Position numbers and translations under genes: made by a program
Shown here: in pieces, positions 1,243 through 6,940 of the stretch
How the letters are laid out: each line of letters starts with the position of its first letter
How positions within the stretch are numbered: position 1 is the stretch's first letter
From: Bacteroidota bacterium
GTDB taxonomy: Bacteria > Bacteroidota > Bacteroidia > Bacteroidales > UBA1556
Length of the DNA stretch: 6,940 nucleotides
Direction of reading: 5' to 3'
Assembly (NCBI GenBank): GCA_003648395.1
Contig: QMPB01000234.1
Location: forward strand, 1-6,940
The notes under the pieces: model-generated
The model's database searches: none
Seen by the model: the letters and a program-made list of their open reading frames with translations, nothing else
What the model was told of the DNA's origin: nothing

Positions 1243-1441
1243 TATGACATATAAGGTTGTATCTTTATCTATAATATGATCACAAAATTGTGCTTTAATG
1301 TAGATTCTATTGGTTAACACTGCAGCAAGACAACTTATATCTCTGAATGTGTGTATCATATTTCTTATTTTGTTGGGGAAATAAATAAGAGATACAAAAT
1401 CTTATATAAGATTGAAGGCTAGGTCGAATGACCTAGCCTTT
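1243..1441 (+). ncRNA. Candidate structured small RNA of about 200 nt, 6S-like rod
   Basis: The stretch lies between an orphan promoter and a perfect hairpin, and it pairs with itself over long distance. A closing stem joins 1249-1264 to 1390-1407 (ATATAAG with CTTATAT, TTGTATCT with AGATACAA, one possible G-T pair, a 2-nt bulge). A second stem joins 1273-1284 to 1350-1362 (AATATGAT with ATCATATT, CACA with TGTG, one bulged T). An inner short stem may join 1288-1294 to 1324-1333. Between the first two stems is an unequal internal loop, about 6 nt on the left and 25 nt on the right. The large side contains TATTTTG, one base short of a -7 box. A 180-200 nt rod with a large central bubble is the layout of 6S RNA, which mimics an open promoter and binds RNA polymerase. 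The RNA call rests on visible pairing plus promoter and terminator; the 6S identity is inference, and another regulatory RNA is possible. The rest of the 1101-1473 gap (1139-1204, 1442-1473) shows nothing clear. Confidence 0.45.
1415..1440. terminator. Strong hairpin, likely bidirectional terminator
   Basis: A perfect 11-bp stem (AAGGCTAGGTC at 1415-1425, its complement at 1430-1440) closes a GAAT loop. On the + strand it is followed by TGTAGTTATATTT, a moderate T-rich tail. On the - strand it lies 33 bases past the NifX-like gene's stop and is followed by a poorer tail. It would end the candidate small RNA and probably also the leftward operon. Confidence 0.75.
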
Positions 1442-1473
1442 GTAGTTATATTTATTATTGACTGTAAGAAATT

Positions 1474-1812
1474 TTAAATTCTTTTTAAGTCTCCCTTTCT
1501 AAAAGCATCATAAGCCTCCTTCATAGTCATATCACCTGCACCAATATAACAAGTAGTTCCTAATTTTTGTAATACTGTTGCAGCATTACCACCTGGTCCA
1601 TTACCAGTAATTAATATGTCAGCCTTAATTTCAGCAATTTTCTGAGCGGCTTTTGGTCCAGCTCCATGAGCTTCGTTCTCAACATCCTTATTGCTTACTG
1701 TAGTTAATGTTTTTTTATCCTCATCGAATACCATAAAATATTCTGCTCTTCCAAATCGGGCATCCATATTTGAATCCCAATCTGTTCCTTTTGTTGTAAA
1801 TGCTATTTTCAT
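1474..1812 (-). CDS. NifX/MTH1175-like (COG1433) metal-cluster-binding protein
   Basis: A 112-residue protein of the dinitrogenase Fe-Mo cofactor biosynthesis family (Nitro_FeMo-Co domain), a small RNase H-like fold that fills the whole chain. Visible hallmarks are the MKIAFTTKG start, DARFGRAEYF near residues 17-26, HGAGPKAAQ near 49-57 and GNGPGGNAATVLQKLG in the second half. Family members bind FeMo-co precursors or, as in Desulfovibrio ORP, a Mo-Cu-S cluster. They usually sit beside ferredoxin-containing MinD ATPases, as here. The start at 1812 was chosen because the family begins there. An in-frame opening reaches 1932, but those 40 extra residues come from the octamer repeats and the end of the neighbouring gene. 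There is no Shine-Dalgarno; the repeat array ends 7 bases before the ATG. It is the last gene of the leftward set. The exact ligand is unknown. Confidence 0.87.
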   Translation of the reverse strand: MKIAFTTKGTDWDSNMDARFGRAEYFMVFDEDKKTLTTVSNKDVENEAHGAGPKAAQKIAEIKADILITGNGPGGNAATVLQKLGTTCYIGAGDMTMKEAYDAFRKGDLKRI

Positions 1813-1819
1813 AATAATG

Positions 1820-1877
1820 TTTATTTGTTTATTTGTTGAATTGGTTATTTGTTTATTCTGTTTATTCTGTTTATTTC
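1820..1877. repeat. Degenerate octamer tandem array upstream of the NifX-like gene
   Basis: On the + strand the units are TTTATTTG twice, TTGAATTG, GTTATTTG, TTTATTCTG twice (9-mers), then TTTATTTC. The array fills most of the 91-base gap between the reductase stop and the NifX-like start, ending 7 bases before the ATG. The same 8-base period and some of the same units occur at 6190-6221. Function is unknown; leader-region control or copy-number variation is possible. Confidence 0.8.
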
Positions 1878-1903
1878 TAGTATTTTTTTGGCTATAGCTC
1901 TCC

Positions 1904-3757
1904 CTAAATCCTCTGACTAAGACTATACGCATCGAAAATAGCCGTTTGAGCTTTTCCTACTTTAGATGCATCTCCAATGACATGTATTTCCTTATTAAAT
2001 TCACCACTATCAAAAGGAACATCCTTTTTCATTCCTGTAGCAACAACTAGCATATCAATGCCTTCAATCTCTTGTTTTATATTATCTTTAATAAAAATTA
2101 TTTTATCACCATTTATTTCTTCCACTATTGCAGATGTAAAAATCATAATATTTTCATTTTGAAATGCCTTTAATGTTAATTTTTGCTCAATCATTTCCAT
2201 ACCATTTGCCACGCTTTCAAGCATTTCAAAAACAAATACTTCATTATTATTAGCTAGCAAATGGTTAGCAACCTCAGTACCTATTAAACCACCACCAATA
2301 ACAGCTACTCTTTTATTTGTTGGAGTATTTTGTTTCTTTAAAATTTCTGCCCAATAATAATTCTTCAATCCCTTAATAGGAGGAACACTTGGTTTTGAAC
2401 CTGAGGCTATTATTATTTCATCATAAGATAATAAATCCGAAATTTCAGCATTCTTATAAATTATTTGAATATTGTAAAAATCAACCTCATCAAAATAAAA
2501 ATCTATTAACTTTTTTAAAGACTGTTTATGCGGAGGCAAATATGCAAGATTAAACTGCCCACCAACTTGGTTCTTCTCAAAAAGAGTAATCAAATAACCT
2601 CTTTTCTTCAACTCAACAGCAGCCTCCAAACCTGCTAATCCTGCTCCAATAATTGCTACTCTTTTTCTTTCTAATATTTTTTTTCCTTGAATCACATTAG
2701 TACCCACTTTTGGATTAACCAAACACTGTAAGCCCTTTCCTCCTTTTACTCCCCCCAAACAACCTTCGGCACAAGCCAAGCAAGGCCTAATATTCTCCTT
2801 AATAATACCCTGATATTTCCCCACAAAATCTTCGTCAGCAATAAGAGCACGACCTAGAGCAATATATTTTGCACCATAATTTACCTTTAAGTTTTCAATA
2901 TCCTTAACCGTATTTATTTGTCCTAAGAACATAGCTAAAACTCCTGTATCTTCTTGTATCTTCTTGGCAAAATCCCACGTTTTACCCTTAGGTACAAACA
3001 TATGCTGATAATACCAAGGTGCAGTATTACAAACTGTTCCTGCAGAAACATGAACTATCTCTACACCTATTTTCTTAAGCTCCTTAACCAATACAATGCT
3101 TTCTTCCAATTTTATTCCATCAGGAATCATTTCATCGGCACTAATTCTTGCAATTATTGGGATTGAAACAGCTTCTTTTATTGCTTCTAATATTTCCAAT
3201 GGAAACCGCATTCTATTCTCTAAACTACCACCATATTCATCTATTCTATCATTAACTTTTGGCGATAAAAATTGTGCTAATAAATAACCATGTCCAAACT
3301 GCAATTCAATAATATCAAAGCCTGTTTTTTTAGCTCGAATACTAGCATCAACAAATAAGTCTTTTACTTTAGAAAAGTCATTTTTAGTCATACTCCTAGG
3401 GGTTGCCCCCATTACTTCACAAGCCTTATCGGTAGAAGAAATATAATAGTTTCCTGGTAATTTTGGGTTAGCCATTCTTCCAGGGTGACTAAGGTGGGCA
3501 ATAGCTTTTGATCCATTATTATGAATTACTTCTGTAAGTTTAAGCAAACCTTCATTCTTCTCATCAGAATCAATTCCCATCTGAACAGGTAATTCCCGAA
3601 TACCCTTATCTAAATAAAAAGGCTCTGGAATTACTGCAGCCACATATTTACTGTGACGTTTATAAAACTCCAAATGTCTATCATTAACTAAACCACTTTG
3701 ATCTCCATATCCAGTTTTAATGGGGGCAAAAATAAACTCGTTTCTTAATTCTAACAT
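1904..3757 (-). CDS. Old-yellow-enzyme/FadH-type flavin and 4Fe-4S NAD(P)H oxidoreductase
   Basis: This 617-residue protein has the three-part build of 2,4-dienoyl-CoA reductase relatives (E. coli FadH is about 670). Residues 1-320 form an FMN-type TIM barrel with the OYE signature near 154-190 (FGHGYLLAQFLSP, then YGGSLENR). A CxxCxxxCx11C set (C326, C329, C333, C345) should hold one [4Fe-4S]. GAGLAG at 371-376 opens the FAD fold, GGGLIG at 488-493 the NAD(P)H fold, and HVIGDA near 592 closes the FAD site. Electrons would run NAD(P)H to FAD to Fe-S to FMN to substrate. Tyr158 matches the FadH active-site tyrosine, but where FadH has its catalytic histidine (a WHEARIP stretch) this protein reads WYYQHMFVP, so a dienoyl-CoA substrate is doubtful. 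The start is fixed by AGGAGG six bases upstream. It lies between the ATPase and NifX-like genes, which suggests, but does not prove, a redox role for that system. Confidence 0.88.
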   Translation of the reverse strand: MLELRNEFIFAPIKTGYGDQSGLVNDRHLEFYKRHSKYVAAVIPEPFYLDKGIRELPVQMGIDSDEKNEGLLKLTEVIHNNGSKAIAHLSHPGRMANPKLPGNYYISSTDKACEVMGATPRSMTKNDFSKVKDLFVDASIRAKKTGFDIIELQFGHGYLLAQFLSPKVNDRIDEYGGSLENRMRFPLEILEAIKEAVSIPIIARISADEMIPDGIKLEESIVLVKELKKIGVEIVHVSAGTVCNTAPWYYQHMFVPKGKTWDFAKKIQEDTGVLAMFLGQINTVKDIENLKVNYGAKYIALGRALIADEDFVGKYQGIIKENIRPCLACAEGCLGGVKGGKGLQCLVNPKVGTNVIQGKKILERKRVAIIGAGLAGLEAAVELKKRGYLITLFEKNQVGGQFNLAYLPPHKQSLKKLIDFYFDEVDFYNIQIIYKNAEISDLLSYDEIIIASGSKPSVPPIKGLKNYYWAEILKKQNTPTNKRVAVIGGGLIGTEVANHLLANNNEVFVFEMLESVANGMEMIEQKLTLKAFQNENIMIFTSAIVEEINGDKIIFIKDNIKQEIEGIDMLVVATGMKKDVPFDSGEFNKEIHVIGDASKVGKAQTAIFDAYSLSQRI

Positions 3758-3763
3758 AATAAA

Positions 3764-3769
3764 CCTCCT
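3764..3769 (-). promoter_or_regulatory. Strong Shine-Dalgarno for the reductase gene
   Basis: AGGAGG on the - strand, six bases from the ATG at 3757. It decides the start. A full consensus site is unusual here, since five of the seven other intact or start-bearing genes' starts show none and only the second ATPase shares it. Confidence 0.8.
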
Positions 3770-3879
3770 ATTTTTAATTAATTTTATTTAATACTTTGTT
3801 TCTGGCAAAACTCTAAATCTAAATAAATAGTAATAACATACCTATTCTAAGGTCATCTATTTACATGACACCTACAAAG

Positions 3880-4752
3880 TTATAAAATATTTCTTACTTT
3901 ATCCCATATTTGATATAAATTATCCTTAATTACACTTCCTTCATATTCCACTATAGTTTCTCCATTAACCATTGCTTTAGTAAAGTTTTCATCATAAGGC
4001 AAATTTGCAAGGTGAATTATGTTCTCTTCTTTTAGAAATTCTTTTATTTCATTGGTTACTTCCAAATTAATATCGTGCTTATTGATTATACATCCTGCTT
4101 TAATTCTAAACTTTGCAACTAACTCATAAACTCTCTTTAGGTCATGTAAACCAGAAACACTTGGTTCGGTAACCAAAATTACAAAATTAGCACCTGACAA
4201 TGAAGATACAACAGGACAGCCAACACCCGGAGATCCATCAACAATAATATATTTCCTATTCTCCTTTTCAGCAATAATTTTAGCCTCATTCTTTACTTTA
4301 GCAACCAATTTTCCAGAATTATCAGCACCAATACCAAGTTTTGCATGAACCATTTTGCTAGCAGTTTTAATTGAAGAAATATGCCATTTACCAACATTTA
4401 ATGGAATATTTGTAATTGCTTCCACAGGACACACTCTGGCACAATAACCGCAACCTTCGCAGGATAGGTCATCCACAATATGTACACCATCATTAACATC
4501 AATAGCATCAAACCTACATACATCAAAGCATTTCCCACATTGGGTACATATTTCTTGGTTTATCACTGCCAGTTCTCCGCTATAAAAGTCTTCTGAAACT
4601 ATACTCTTTGGCTTTAGTAAAAGGTGCATATCTGCAGCATCTACATCACAATCGGCTACAACCACATCTTTTCCTCCCAATACTGCCAAAGATGCTGTAA
4701 TAGAGGTTTTACCTGTTCCTCCTTTTCCTGAAATAACAACTATCTCCTTCAA
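3880..4752 (-). CDS. MinD-type ATPase with inserted 2x[4Fe-4S] ferredoxin domain (second copy)
   Basis: A 290-residue member of COG1149, P-loop ATPases of the MinD/Mrp/CooC type with a ferredoxin inserted after the first strands. Seen: deviant Walker A GKGGTGKTS at residues 9-17, ADCDVDAADMH at 33-43, two clusters CxxCxxCxxxC at 69/72/75/79 and 98/101/104/108, switch-like DGSPGVGCPV at 172-181, and VTEP at 194-197. Relatives act as nucleotide-dependent partners of COG1433 cluster proteins, perhaps loading or releasing a metal-sulfur cofactor; the exact role is unproven. The start is TTG at 4752, preceded by AGGAGG seven bases upstream, and it overlaps the TGA of the upstream ATPase gene (TTGA), so translation is probably coupled. 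A gap of 122 bases separates it from the downstream reductase gene. Cysteine positions are identical to those of the upstream paralog, which points to an old duplication. Confidence 0.92.
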   Translation of the reverse strand: MKEIVVISGKGGTGKTSITASLAVLGGKDVVVADCDVDAADMHLLLKPKSIVSEDFYSGELAVINQEICTQCGKCFDVCRFDAIDVNDGVHIVDDLSCEGCGYCARVCPVEAITNIPLNVGKWHISSIKTASKMVHAKLGIGADNSGKLVAKVKNEAKIIAEKENRKYIIVDGSPGVGCPVVSSLSGANFVILVTEPSVSGLHDLKRVYELVAKFRIKAGCIINKHDINLEVTNEIKEFLKEENIIHLANLPYDENFTKAMVNGETIVEYEGSVIKDNLYQIWDKVRNIL

Positions 4753-5615
4753 TTTAGAACCTCCTTTCTCTTGCTATGTATTAGCCGTTCAATTTTCATT
4801 AATTCTTCTTTTACCTCTGGTATTTTATTGTAGAGAAGTTCTCCTCTTGAGTACAAATGTGCAATTTCTTTCATATTTGGGATTTTTGCAATAATTGGAA
4901 TATTATTATTGGAACAATATTTTTCAATTTCATTATTGCCTATTCCATGACGATTTATTACAATTCCAAATTCTTTTTTAAGCTCCTTCATCGTTTCAAT
5001 GGCAAGTACAACATCATTAAACCCAAATGGTGTTGGCTCAGTAATTAATATTACATAATCCGCATCTTTAGTAGCTTCTATAACAGGGCATGAAGTACCA
5101 GGGGGAGAATCATAAATCTTAATAAATGTATTATCAAACTCTTTATCCACAAATTTCAGTGTTTGCTTAATTAATGGAACGGCCTGTTCTTCACCAATTA
5201 CTAAGCGACTTTCTACAAAATCAAAATTATCAGTTTTAGAGTGCTTCAATTCTCCCATTTTCTTTGGTATCATAGGAAGTGAATTTGTCGGACAAAGTTC
5301 AGAGCAAGCATAACAAGAATGACAAAGCTCTGGGAATACCATTATTGAGTCCATTATTTGAATTACAGCGTGATAATTACATACCGATTGGCAATTTCCA
5401 CAAAGAATACATTCTTTTTCATTCCATTGTGGAATCATTTTTACTTTATCCTCTTGGTGAATTAGTTTAGAATCGAGAAAAAGTCCAGAATTAGGTTCTT
5501 CAACATCTAAATCAGTAAGTACAACTTTCTCAGTTTGTGCTAAAAAAGAAGATAAATTAGTAGAAAGAGTGGTCTTTCCTGTACCACCCTTTCCACTAGC
5601 AATGGCTATTTTCAT
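4749..5615 (-). CDS. MinD-type ATPase with inserted 2x[4Fe-4S] ferredoxin domain (first copy)
   Basis: A 288-residue paralog of the next gene (COG1149). Walker A GKGGTGKTT lies at residues 8-16, TDLDVEEPNSG at 34-44, and the ferredoxin insert has cysteines at 69/72/75/79 and 98/101/104/108. DSPPGTSCPVIEA follows at 169-181 and ITEP at 191-194. The cysteine of the SPxGxxCP motif is conserved in both copies, as is usual in this family, and may touch bound metal or a partner. Two different copies side by side suggest a heterodimer; MinD-type ATPases dimerise around ATP. The ATG at 5615 lies four bases after the stop of the cysteine-knuckle gene and has no Shine-Dalgarno, so it probably relies on coupling. 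The Desulfovibrio orp cluster carries a similar ATPase pair. Soluble and cytoplasmic, since no membrane segment is seen. Confidence 0.92.
   Translation of the reverse strand: MKIAIASGKGGTGKTTLSTNLSSFLAQTEKVVLTDLDVEEPNSGLFLDSKLIHQEDKVKMIPQWNEKECILCGNCQSVCNYHAVIQIMDSIMVFPELCHSCYACSELCPTNSLPMIPKKMGELKHSKTDNFDFVESRLVIGEEQAVPLIKQTLKFVDKEFDNTFIKIYDSPPGTSCPVIEATKDADYVILITEPTPFGFNDVVLAIETMKELKKEFGIVINRHGIGNNEIEKYCSNNNIPIIAKIPNMKEIAHLYSRGELLYNKIPEVKEELMKIERLIHSKRKEVLN
4760..4765 (-). promoter_or_regulatory. Shine-Dalgarno supporting a TTG start
   Basis: AGGAGG on the - strand, seven bases before the TTG at 4752 and inside the last codons of the upstream ATPase gene. It supports the non-ATG start and likely re-initiation after the overlapping TGA. 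Confidence 0.75.
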
Positions 5616-5619
5616 ATAC

Positions 5620-5844
5620 TTATTTTGTTTTAGTTTTAAGCAATTCTTCTCGAATCATCGTGTGACCACATTCAGGGCATTTAATTGTAGTACATTTAAT
5701 ACCCTGCTGATGTGGAATCTTCTCTCCGCATTTTGCACAAACGCAATATCCACCACTGCCAAAACTTCCACCATTATTTCTTCCTTGACCTCCTCCTCTA
5801 CCTAATCCTTTTCCTCCACCAAGGCCTTTTCCTTTTCCATTCAT
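5620..5844 (-). CDS. Small Gly-rich protein with C-terminal cysteine knuckles
   Basis: This 74-residue protein has two parts. Residues 1-33 are a Gly/Lys/Arg-rich low-complexity tail with a repeated GKGLG unit. Residues 34-61 hold six cysteines (C34, C36, C39, C51, C56, C59) with the CAKCGEK and KCPECGH knuckles, plus His45 and His61. The layout suggests a rubredoxin/zinc-ribbon-like site for Zn or Fe. I recall similar short proteins with a CxxCG...PHQ...CPxCG pattern beside COG1433/MinD genes, but the function is not established. It lies 12 bases after the DUF5320-like gene and 4 bases before the first ATPase gene, so all three are almost certainly co-transcribed. No Shine-Dalgarno is seen at the ATG. 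The basic glycine tail might bind nucleic acid or a partner; this is inference. Confidence 0.8.
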   Translation of the reverse strand: MNGKGKGLGGGKGLGRGGGQGRNNGGSFGSGGYCVCAKCGEKIPHQQGIKCTTIKCPECGHTMIREELLKTKTK

Positions 5845-5856
5845 AATCTAATTTTT

Positions 5857-6147
5857 TTAAAGGTTCTTTAATCTTTCCTCCAAACTAGAAAGTTGATCTT
5901 TAAGAATATTAATTTCATTTTGCACTAAAGTTTTCTCGCTTACATCCGTAAAACTCCTTCTACCTTGGCCATAGCCTCTTCCAAAACCTTGACCATTACC
6001 AAAGCCTCTTCTTTGTCCAAAGCCTCTACCAAAGCCCTGACCTCTATTCTCTAGATATCCAGCTGTTTCGTTTCCTACGCAATATCCTAGCGCTCTTCCT
6101 GTTTTCGGACCACTTCCGTTGGGTCCTGTTCTGTCTCCTCGTGGCAT
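5857..6147 (-). CDS. DUF5320-like Gly/Phe/Arg-rich protein with C-terminal coiled coil
   Basis: A 96-residue protein beginning MPRGDRTGPNGSGPKTGRAL, typical of the DUF5320 family, whose genes accompany COG1433 and ferredoxin-MinD genes in many anaerobes. Residues 21-35 contain the only cysteine (GYCVGN, C23). Residues 36-65 are low complexity, with repeated GFG, GYG and RG units. Residues 70-96 form a clean leucine heptad series (V75, I79, L82, L86, L89, L93, L96 at 4-3-4-3-4-3 spacing), so the protein should oligomerise. No biochemical role is known for the family; a scaffold for the metal-cluster system is a guess. It is the first gene of the leftward operon, with a leader of about 125 bases carrying the second octamer array. 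No Shine-Dalgarno is visible. Confidence 0.85.
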   Translation of the reverse strand: MPRGDRTGPNGSGPKTGRALGYCVGNETAGYLENRGQGFGRGFGQRRGFGNGQGFGRGYGQGRRSFTDVSEKTLVQNEINILKDQLSSLEERLKNL

Positions 6148-6189
6148 AATTTTTATGTTTTAAATTGTTAAATATTATATGTTAGATTG

Positions 6190-6221
6190 TGTATTTGTTT
6201 ATTCGTTTATCTGGTTATTTG
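6190..6221. repeat. Octamer array in the leader of the leftward operon
   Basis: Four exact-period octamers on the + strand: TGTATTTG, TTTATTCG, TTTATCTG, GTTATTTG. They lie between the predicted start site near 6273 and the DUF5320-like ATG at 6147. Period and units match the array at 1820-1877, in the same orientation relative to the downstream gene. Confidence 0.75.
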
Positions 6222-6278
6222 AACTGTAAAATTGACAAATATTCCTGTTTCAAAAAACATAACCTCATATTATGACTG

Positions 6279-6310
6279 CAAAGATAATGAACATTTGTTC
6301 ATAAAACAAA
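6279..6310 (-). promoter_or_regulatory. Promoter of the leftward metal-cluster operon
   Basis: On the - strand TTTG (6310-6307), a 20-bp spacer and TATCTTTG (6286-6279), followed by CAGT, form an exact Bacteroidota primary-sigma promoter. The start site would be near 6273, giving a leader of about 125 bases. A perfect palindrome fills most of the spacer, so a bound regulator would block polymerase. Confidence 0.75.
6287..6302. promoter_or_regulatory. Perfect palindrome, probable operator in the divergent promoter region
   Basis: ATGAACATTTGTTCAT has 7-bp arms around TT. Read as TGAAC-N4-GTTCA it has the half-site spacing of FNR/DNR-type Crp-family sites, though the half-sites differ from FNR's own TTGAT. 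It lies between the -33 and -7 boxes of the leftward promoter and 15 bases behind the -33 box of the rightward one, so one regulator could act on both genes. The regulator is unknown. Confidence 0.6.
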
Positions 6311-6317
6311 TTTATTT

Positions 6318-6350
6318 ATTGATATTTTATGATTTTTTTAACTATATTTG
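6318..6350 (+). promoter_or_regulatory. Promoter of the divergent NifX-family gene
   Basis: ATTG at 6318-6321, a 21-bp spacer and TATATTTG at 6343-6350 fit the Bacteroidota consensus. The start site falls near 6356, about 18 bases before the ATG at 6374. The -7 box lies downstream of the earlier in-frame ATG at 6329, which argues against that start. Confidence 0.65.
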
Positions 6351-6373
6351 TCATAACTTTAAAAACTACGACT

Positions 6374-6793
6374 ATGAGCTTAGTATTTGCTTTTGCATTA
6401 AACAATGATAATCAGTTTGAAAACTGCCATTTTGGTGATTCCCATAAATTTGCTATTTATCATCAGAATGAAGAAAGAATTGAGTTTTTTACTGAAATAG
6501 ATAATATTTTCCGAAATGGGAAACATGGTGATAATCAGAAAGGTAATTCCATTATTAAATATCTAGAAAATCTAAATGTTAATATACTTGTTTCAAGAGA
6601 ATTTGGGAGAAATATTATTATGGTAAACAAACATTTTATACCAGTAATAATATCAAAAGAGAGTCCTGAAGAAGTAATAAAAGTACTGCAAGATAAACTT
6701 CATTGGATACTTGACGAATGGAATAGTTCTAACTCAGACTATAAGTTATTTAAAATAAAATCTAGTGTTCTGAAACTTCGGATTAAGGAATAA
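6374..6793 (+). CDS. Divergent NifX-family (COG1433-like) protein
   Basis: A 139-residue protein related to the NifX/MTH1175 fold. After the first strand (MSLVFAFALNND) comes ENCHFGDSHKF, matching the RFGRAEYF region of the other copy. Further on are KHGDNQKGNSIIKYL (the HG-loop region), VNILVSREFGRNI, and a final IPVIISKESPEEVIKVLQ helix region. A C-terminal extension of about 30 residues, rich in Trp, Ser and Lys, goes beyond the usual domain. The fold is likely, but identity with the 1474-1812 protein is low. ATG 6374 is chosen because it starts the first strand and the promoter lies within the longer opening from 6329. It is transcribed away from the operon from a shared regulatory region, so it may be a partner, a cluster sensor or a variant carrier. 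It ends 16 bases before the converging winged-helix gene. Confidence 0.78.
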   Translation: MSLVFAFALNNDNQFENCHFGDSHKFAIYHQNEERIEFFTEIDNIFRNGKHGDNQKGNSIIKYLENLNVNILVSREFGRNIIMVNKHFIPVIISKESPEEVIKVLQDKLHWILDEWNSSNSDYKLFKIKSSVLKLRIKE

Positions 6794-6809: not shown

Positions 6810-6940
6810 TTATACCTTCATGTAAAATACTCCTCTATTTTGAACTTCCTTACGAATCATTCCGCTTTCTTCGAGAACACTAAGATATTTATTAATTTCA
6901 TTGATATGAATTCCCAGAATTAACCTTAGGTCATCTAAGG
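6810..6940 (-). CDS. Winged-helix DNA-binding regulator, C-terminal part only
   Basis: The - strand is open from the right window edge to a TAA at 6810-6812, giving 42 visible residues with no start in view. The stretch LDDLRLILGIHINEINKYL reads as helix-turn-recognition helix. SVLEESGMIRKEV is the following helix and turn, and NRGVFYMKV is a beta wing ending the protein. This pattern fits small winged-helix regulators (ArsR, FeoC-like or similar); the subfamily cannot be set from this part, and metal-ligand residues upstream are not visible. It converges on the NifX-family gene. Being close, it is a candidate regulator of the divergent promoter region, but that is inference. Confidence 0.7.
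   Translation of the reverse strand, partial: LDDLRLILGIHINEINKYLSVLEESGMIRKEVQNRGVFYMKV

Follow-up and report, generated by a model that had tools for sequence, protein, structure and literature searches.

A NifX/MinD operon of a Bacteroidota genome with a conserved promoter operator and an associated flavin/Fe-S reductase

Contig QMPB01000234.1 of a Bacteroidota bacterium (assembly GCA_003648395.1) was analysed over 6,940 nucleotides, here called the window. It carries an operon on the minus strand in the order DUF5320, cysteine knuckle, MinD1, MinD2, reductase and NifX, and a second, diverged NifX gene is oriented divergently from it. The operon is real and conserved. Its core was already known and has been little studied; what is new is the coupling of a reductase to it and a conserved operator in its promoter. 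Our tentative interpretation, for which the chances are nearly even, is that the window holds a DUF134-controlled module carrying metal-sulfur clusters, which Bacteroidota extended by an NAD(P)H-dependent reductase. Clusters of COG1433 (NifX) and MinD genes occur in many anaerobes, and little is established about their role beyond Desulfovibrio. Through the candidate operator upstream of DUF134 genes, members of the regulon become findable by sequence, and the reductase linked to the module offers an enzymatic handle on the identity and charging of the cluster.

The core gene set across genomes

All six families named in the initial annotation of this DNA were recovered, by Pfam matches and, for the knuckle, by conservation of its cysteines and histidine. 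The DUF5320 protein (96 residues; 5857..6147, minus strand; PF17253, 8.5e-23) is followed by the knuckle protein (74 residues; 5620..5844, minus strand), which has a Gly-rich N-terminus and matched no Pfam family above cut-off. An alignment of 52 relatives, several of which may share one genome, shows each of the six Cys residues and the single His of the knuckle to be identical in 90% or more. MinD1 (4749..5615, minus strand) and MinD2 (3880..4752, minus strand, TTG start) are ATPases with an inserted ferredoxin (Pfam CbiA and two Fer4 stretches), and their genes (5615-4749 and 4752-3880) share four bases. After the reductase (617 residues; 1904..3757, minus strand) comes the small NifX/COG1433 protein of the orange protein (ORP) type (112 residues; 1474..1812, minus strand; PF02579, 1.3e-14); its start is most likely at 1812 rather than at a longer ATG at 1932, because relatives begin there. 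The diverged NifX protein (139 residues; 6374..6793, plus strand) matches PF02579 at 5.6e-8 in the frame 6329-6793.

Species genomes were scanned with a MinD1 alignment. All counts out of 80 refer to the best 80 among 325 loci that were confirmed, and were made with home-made profiles over the full length of each retrieved locus (up to 10 kb per side). NifX was found in 76 of them, the MinD pair in 76, DUF5320 in 48, DUF134 in 30, a short knuckle in 29 and the reductase in 3 (L016, L021 and L066). Some long open reading frames (ORFs) first taken as knuckles ("ZNK") proved to be DUF134 proteins bearing a Zn-ribbon-like tail and were left out of the knuckle counts. The loci come from at least Bacteroidota, Neomarinimicrobiota, Calditrichota, Campylobacterota, Spirochaetota, Chloroflexota, Desulfobacterota, Planctomycetes and archaea. 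The same families cluster in many phyla more than by chance, and the core set is not specific to Desulfovibrio. Requiring a strict MinD1 motif, used as the anchor, retained 56 of the 80 loci and dropped 24. Within 5 kb of this anchor lay NifX (55), a partner MinD (54), DUF5320 (30), DUF134 (22), the knuckle (19), NifU (8), radical SAM (8) and the reductase (2), and 16 of the 56 loci had NifX, the MinD pair, DUF5320 and the knuckle together. These counts indicate that the NifX/MinD core is common and the reductase exceptional. COG1433/COG1149 clusters of anaerobes, as sampled by the 80 loci, share with the window NifX and the tandem MinD genes and often DUF5320, the knuckle and DUF134; the reductase of Bacteroidota is a linked subfamily. 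In our literature search, no paper mentioned COG1433 together with COG1149, and none of those listed dealt with the function of DUF5320.

The structure model of MinD1 has a predicted local distance difference test score (pLDDT) of 67.7, falling below 50 at residues 48-119, and supports the ATPase core only; its nearest folds are MinD, a HypB-type ATPase and BchL. We do not claim Cys176 of MinD1 as the counterpart of the NifH cluster ligand, an assignment based on spacing, as comparisons failed to align it. Both MinD ATPases are naturally fused in one 621-residue frame of a Spirochaetales metagenome-assembled genome (MAG; L074:6032-7894), which suggests that they work as a pair. A similar frame in L012 contains an ambiguous residue, and L074 alone was counted.

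The promoter operator and DUF134

Between DUF5320 and the divergent NifX gene lies a promoter directed into the operon, TTTG-N20-TATCTTTG (6279..6310, minus strand), whose -33/-7 spacer is filled by a palindromic operator with the core TGAACATTTGTTCA (6285..6304). The promoter match is weak alone (0.57 expected by chance), and relatives show the same layout; the palindrome has an expectation of 0.01 and is conserved before DUF134 and DUF5320 genes. The promoter motif is of the Bacteroidota type and, together with the nearest named match, a Bacteroidetes MAG with 82% identity, agrees with the Bacteroidota origin that had been assigned from the letters alone. The set extends beyond what was initially described: this operator/promoter (6279-6310) and, at the right edge, a radical-SAM C-terminus (6938-6810) belong to it as well.

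An operator core, TGAACATATGTTCA, was derived from Bacteroidota relatives and searched for in 42 distinct DUF134 upstream regions, which remained from 64 DUF134-like ORFs after removal of duplicates and short flanks. Allowing up to 2 mismatches and 160 bp upstream, it was present in 25 of the 42 regions (28 with up to 3 mismatches; 0.8 in shuffles). The unbiased count, without three loci that were fetched by the pattern itself (L196, L199 and L209), is 22 of 39. The 25 operator-led genes are distributed over nine phyla: Bacteroidota, Neomarinimicrobiota, Calditrichota, Campylobacterota, Cloacimonadota, Chloroflexota, Alphaproteobacteria, Spirochaetota and Desulfobacterota. As a control, 1133 other upstream regions gave 12 matches, six of which represent the opposite side of a DUF134 operator, one that of a NifX operator and one DUF5320 itself. 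The remaining matches precede genes for a putative heavy-metal chelation protein of the DUF364 family (upstream of L032:8369), a KaiC-like ATPase (L177:8322) and a cytochrome c protein (L197:1503), all three possible further members of the regulon, and a gene that was not identified.

Within the set, the operator (up to 2 mismatches) preceded none of 54 knuckle, 67 MinD1 or 195 MinD2 genes, 1 of 194 small NifX genes, 2 of 19 diverged NifX genes (one being that of the window) and 10 of 76 DUF5320 genes, four of these ten being DUF134 coding sequence. Matches 126-163 bp before DUF5320, including one at 137 bp in L101, were rejected because they are DUF134 coding sequence (codons C-G-H-M-F), and the tally of 20/31 from the same search was not used. 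Ten whole genomes were searched with a 19-base form at 2 mismatches, yielding 16 forward and 17 reverse matches versus 3 and 4 for the reversed pattern; G648 had none. The matches merge to 18 sites, and 13 of these are at DUF134 or DUF5320 promoters (17 were inspected, G501:C35:44799 was not).

DUF134 (PF02001) contains a part resembling sigma-70 region 4; the Zn-ribbon-like tail in L016 scores under the Pfam cut-off. One of the 64 DUF134 ORFs is fused to NifX (L068:1671-2264, an alphaproteobacterial MAG) and has an exact operator core upstream. Outside the core, DUF134 genes led by the operator adjoin NifX (L199, L209) or a pyridoxal phosphate (PLP) enzyme of Cys/Met metabolism (L196:1-759, L209:3-536), possibly a sulfur supplier. 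Two stand-alone reductase genes (L140 and L144, among 40 upstream regions) carry the core in a promoter context at -36 and -54; this is only suggestive, since the control rate predicts 0.4. DUF134 itself would be the protein that binds the palindrome. None of the listed papers described a DUF134 operator.

The reductase and its link to the set

The link between the reductase and the NifX/MinD set is real. In surveys by order and by phylum, three candidates were scored per genome, so the counts may be low. The subfamily profile matched 32 of 393 genomes in the order of G001 (Bacteroidales), and all 32 contain PF02579 genes (98 in total). The distance from the reductase to a NifX gene is at most 500 bp in 9 of these genomes, at most 1.5 kb in 13, 3 kb in 14 and 5 kb in 17, while random placement predicts 0.10, 0.16, 0.25 and 0.38, respectively. 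The P values, between the 3e-25 scale and 5e-16, are overstated because the genomes are related and their sizes were rounded. Any core family is found within 5 kb in 19 of the 32 genomes, and in 8 of the 13 loci whose flanks are visible for more than 3 kb in either direction. The assignment of an added flavin/Fe-S reductase to this set, made in the initial annotation, therefore stands.

Locus L154 has exactly the gene order of the window, DUF5320-knuckle-MinD1-MinD2-reductase-NifX, with DUF134 next to it. NifX directly adjoins the reductase in G001, G194 and G332 (4 bp in the latter two); in L123 it overlaps the beginning of the reductase ORF. Relatives of the diverged NifX flank the reductase in L164, L165, L170 and L178; in L165 and L178, reductase and diverged NifX lie 1.5-2.0 kb beyond the core. 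A separate search of the phylum detected the enzyme in 4 of 395 genomes (G001, G194, G332 and G057), and the profile matched 1 of 9 genomes of MinD loci. A more distant reductase in a Calditrichaceae genome (L182) occurs in the order NifX-DUF5320-reductase, which suggests independent recruitment. A putative heavy-metal exporter gene (ArsP_2) is near the reductase in L165, L170, L176, L178, L179 and L120, at 9-62 bp in L179, L120 and L165, and a radical-SAM gene overlaps the reductase ORF once (L158).

The reductase, which is OYE/2,4-dienoyl-CoA-reductase-like, combines an OYE domain, the flavin mononucleotide (FMN) barrel, with a pyridine-nucleotide-oxidoreductase domain for flavin adenine dinucleotide (FAD) and NAD(P)H (Pfam Oxidored_FMN, 1.3e-49; Pyr_redox_2, 4.5e-31) and a four-Cys [4Fe-4S] motif. 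This quartet (326/329/333/345) is invariant in 56 aligned relatives. The model (pLDDT 86.7) matches 2-naphthoyl-CoA reductase and E. coli 2,4-dienoyl-CoA reductase (DCR) at near full length, with about 21-25% identity, the whole domain plan and the Cys quartet being shared; histamine and trimethylamine dehydrogenases are also matched at near full length. Tyr158 aligns with DCR Tyr166 and His156 is kept as well, whereas Trp251-His252-Glu253 of DCR corresponds to Thr241-Val242-Cys243. We take Tyr166 and His252 to be the catalytic residues of DCR, so that the catalytic His is replaced by Val242. Cys243 and the stretch Gln251-His252-Met253-Phe254 are invariant in the 56 relatives; we claim no active-site geometry because the model is weak at 249-251.

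These best matches, all of them reductases and dehydrogenases of acyl-CoA, amine or ene substrates, together with the retained Tyr158 and His156 and the distance from the set in several genomes, would fit an ordinary ene- or acyl-CoA reductase whose Fe-S cluster is merely matured by the NifX/MinD set, or which only shares its neighbourhood. We consider this possible but somewhat unlikely. The proximity to NifX is strong, maturation needs no partner tied to one subfamily, the position of DCR His252 holds a valine, and the scores are far under the NCBIfam cut-offs for BaiCD (360 versus 825 bits) and bilirubin reductase (341 versus 750 bits).

A possible metal-sulfur module

Neighbouring genes were compared over 117 loci including the window (the 80 MinD loci plus 37 more; L016 and L123 share a contig), and one representative of each listed family was annotated. 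Recurrent families were DUF134 (26 loci), radical SAM (24), an ARMT1-like family (19), an unassigned family (19), a CoA-disulfide-reductase-like family (16), NifU_N (13), ArsP_2 (12), CGGC (12), a sigma-54 activator (10), DUF364 (9), a methyltransferase (9), TrmO (8), FeoB (8) and FUR (6).

We tentatively propose that the window contains one instance of a widespread module, which would assemble, carry or store a metal-sulfur cluster. The ferredoxin-bearing MinD ATPases may be an ATP-driven, redox-active pair that loads or unloads the small NifX/ORP protein as cluster holder, with DUF5320 and the knuckle as accessory proteins binding metals or partners. DUF134 would control the operon through the palindrome in the core promoter, most likely as a repressor. 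The reductase could be the lineage-specific electron source of Bacteroidota, passing electrons from NAD(P)H via FAD, the [4Fe-4S] cluster and FMN to a module partner, which may be the MinD ferredoxins or NifX cluster or else a small acceptor, of sulfur or another kind, that cluster building requires. A Mo-Cu cluster and a use of these electrons in cluster assembly, both proposed at the outset, may apply here.

This interpretation is based on the co-occurrence of NifX and MinD, the proximity of NifX to the reductase, the gene order of L154 with its DUF134, the operator counts, the DUF134-NifX fusion and the invariant Cys quartet. It is further based on the recurrence of neighbours related to metals and sulfur (NifU_N, ArsP_2, DUF364, FeoB, FUR and the Cys/Met PLP enzyme) and on the co-purification of Orp3, Orp4 and Orp8 from D. 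vulgaris (PMC6345978). Several observations speak against it. In 13 of the 32 genomes, the 5 kb to either side of the reductase contain no core family (5 of the 13 loci that show more than 3 kb of each flank), none of the set was found in the 18 kb examined around the reductase of G057, and only 3 of the best 80 MinD loci contain the enzyme. At 2 mismatches, 17 of the 42 DUF134 genes lack the operator upstream, and the visible window contains no DUF134 gene. A bolder joint proposal, which we regard as rather unlikely, is that DUF134 regulates a cross-phylum metal-sulfur regulon by reading cluster status via its NifX partners at the palindrome, and that the reductase, with its invariant Cys beside the position of the lost DCR His, is a new NAD(P)H-dependent type acting on a metal-sulfur carrier or sulfur donor instead of an enoyl compound.

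Of the Desulfovibrio ORP complex (Orp3, Orp4, Orp5, Orp8, Orp9), the window has counterparts of the ferredoxin-bearing MinD pair (Orp3/Orp4) and, by sequence alone, of the single-domain NifX/ORP protein Orp8, as well as the divergent gene arrangement. The small NifX protein matches the PDB ORP chain 2wfb (9e-10; shared D-x-RFGRA and HGAG), ranking after two other unnamed family members. According to PMC6345978, MrpORP (Orp9) transfers Fe-S clusters to Orp3, Orp4 and Orp8 in vitro. The window has no gene that, like Orp9, joins P-loop and NifX domains, and no sigma-54 site (TGGCAC-N5-TTGC, up to 1 mismatch); it adds DUF5320, the knuckle, the reductase and a DUF134-type operator. The label "orp-like" given initially hence holds for the Orp3/Orp4/Orp8 trio and not for Orp9 or sigma-54 control. 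Neither NifX protein reaches the cut-off for the NifX of nitrogen fixation (TIGR02663; 23.1 and 20.1 bits, cut-off 112).

The set might instead store or detoxify thiometallates or iron sulfide in the manner of IssA and ORP, with the reductase keeping the store soluble. PMC6345978 and PMC5524996 place ORP and IssA within one domain family, the NifX domain (IPR003731) is common to IssA of Pyrococcus furiosus and the window proteins, and ArsP_2, DUF364 and FeoB recur nearby. However, the long cationic, aromatic, Gly-rich C-terminal tail of IssA (PMC5524996) is absent from the NifX proteins of the window (112 and 139 residues), and the ATPases and neighbouring NifU_N suit assembly better; we therefore judge storage improbable. 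That the palindrome belongs to another metalloregulator of the ArsR/SmtB type, whose operators its core resembles, is very improbable: metal-related neighbours recur and a FUR-family gene is present in 6 MinD loci, but the site precedes the DUF134 genes themselves in nine phyla, and no ArsR-type gene is among the annotated recurrent families (part of 18 annotated).

The window ends within a radical-SAM gene (6810..6938, minus strand), of which the C-terminal 42 residues with a helix-turn-helix-like tail are visible. This tail was aligned by eye with the radical-SAM C-termini of L155, L165, L176, L178 and L179, and the family recurs in these clusters. An incomplete metallophosphoesterase/PhoD-like gene occupies 3-1100 on the plus strand (Metallophos, 22.3 bits, cut-off 21.5); no match to it was found near the core set in the 80 MinD loci. 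A GC-rich hairpin 3' of the operon (1413..1442) is a possible terminator with a T-rich tail only on the plus strand; four terminator-like sites were found in the window compared to 2.2 expected. Finally, 8-base tandem repeats of the TGTTTATT type occur in two intergenic stretches of the set (1818-1876 and 6187-6221).

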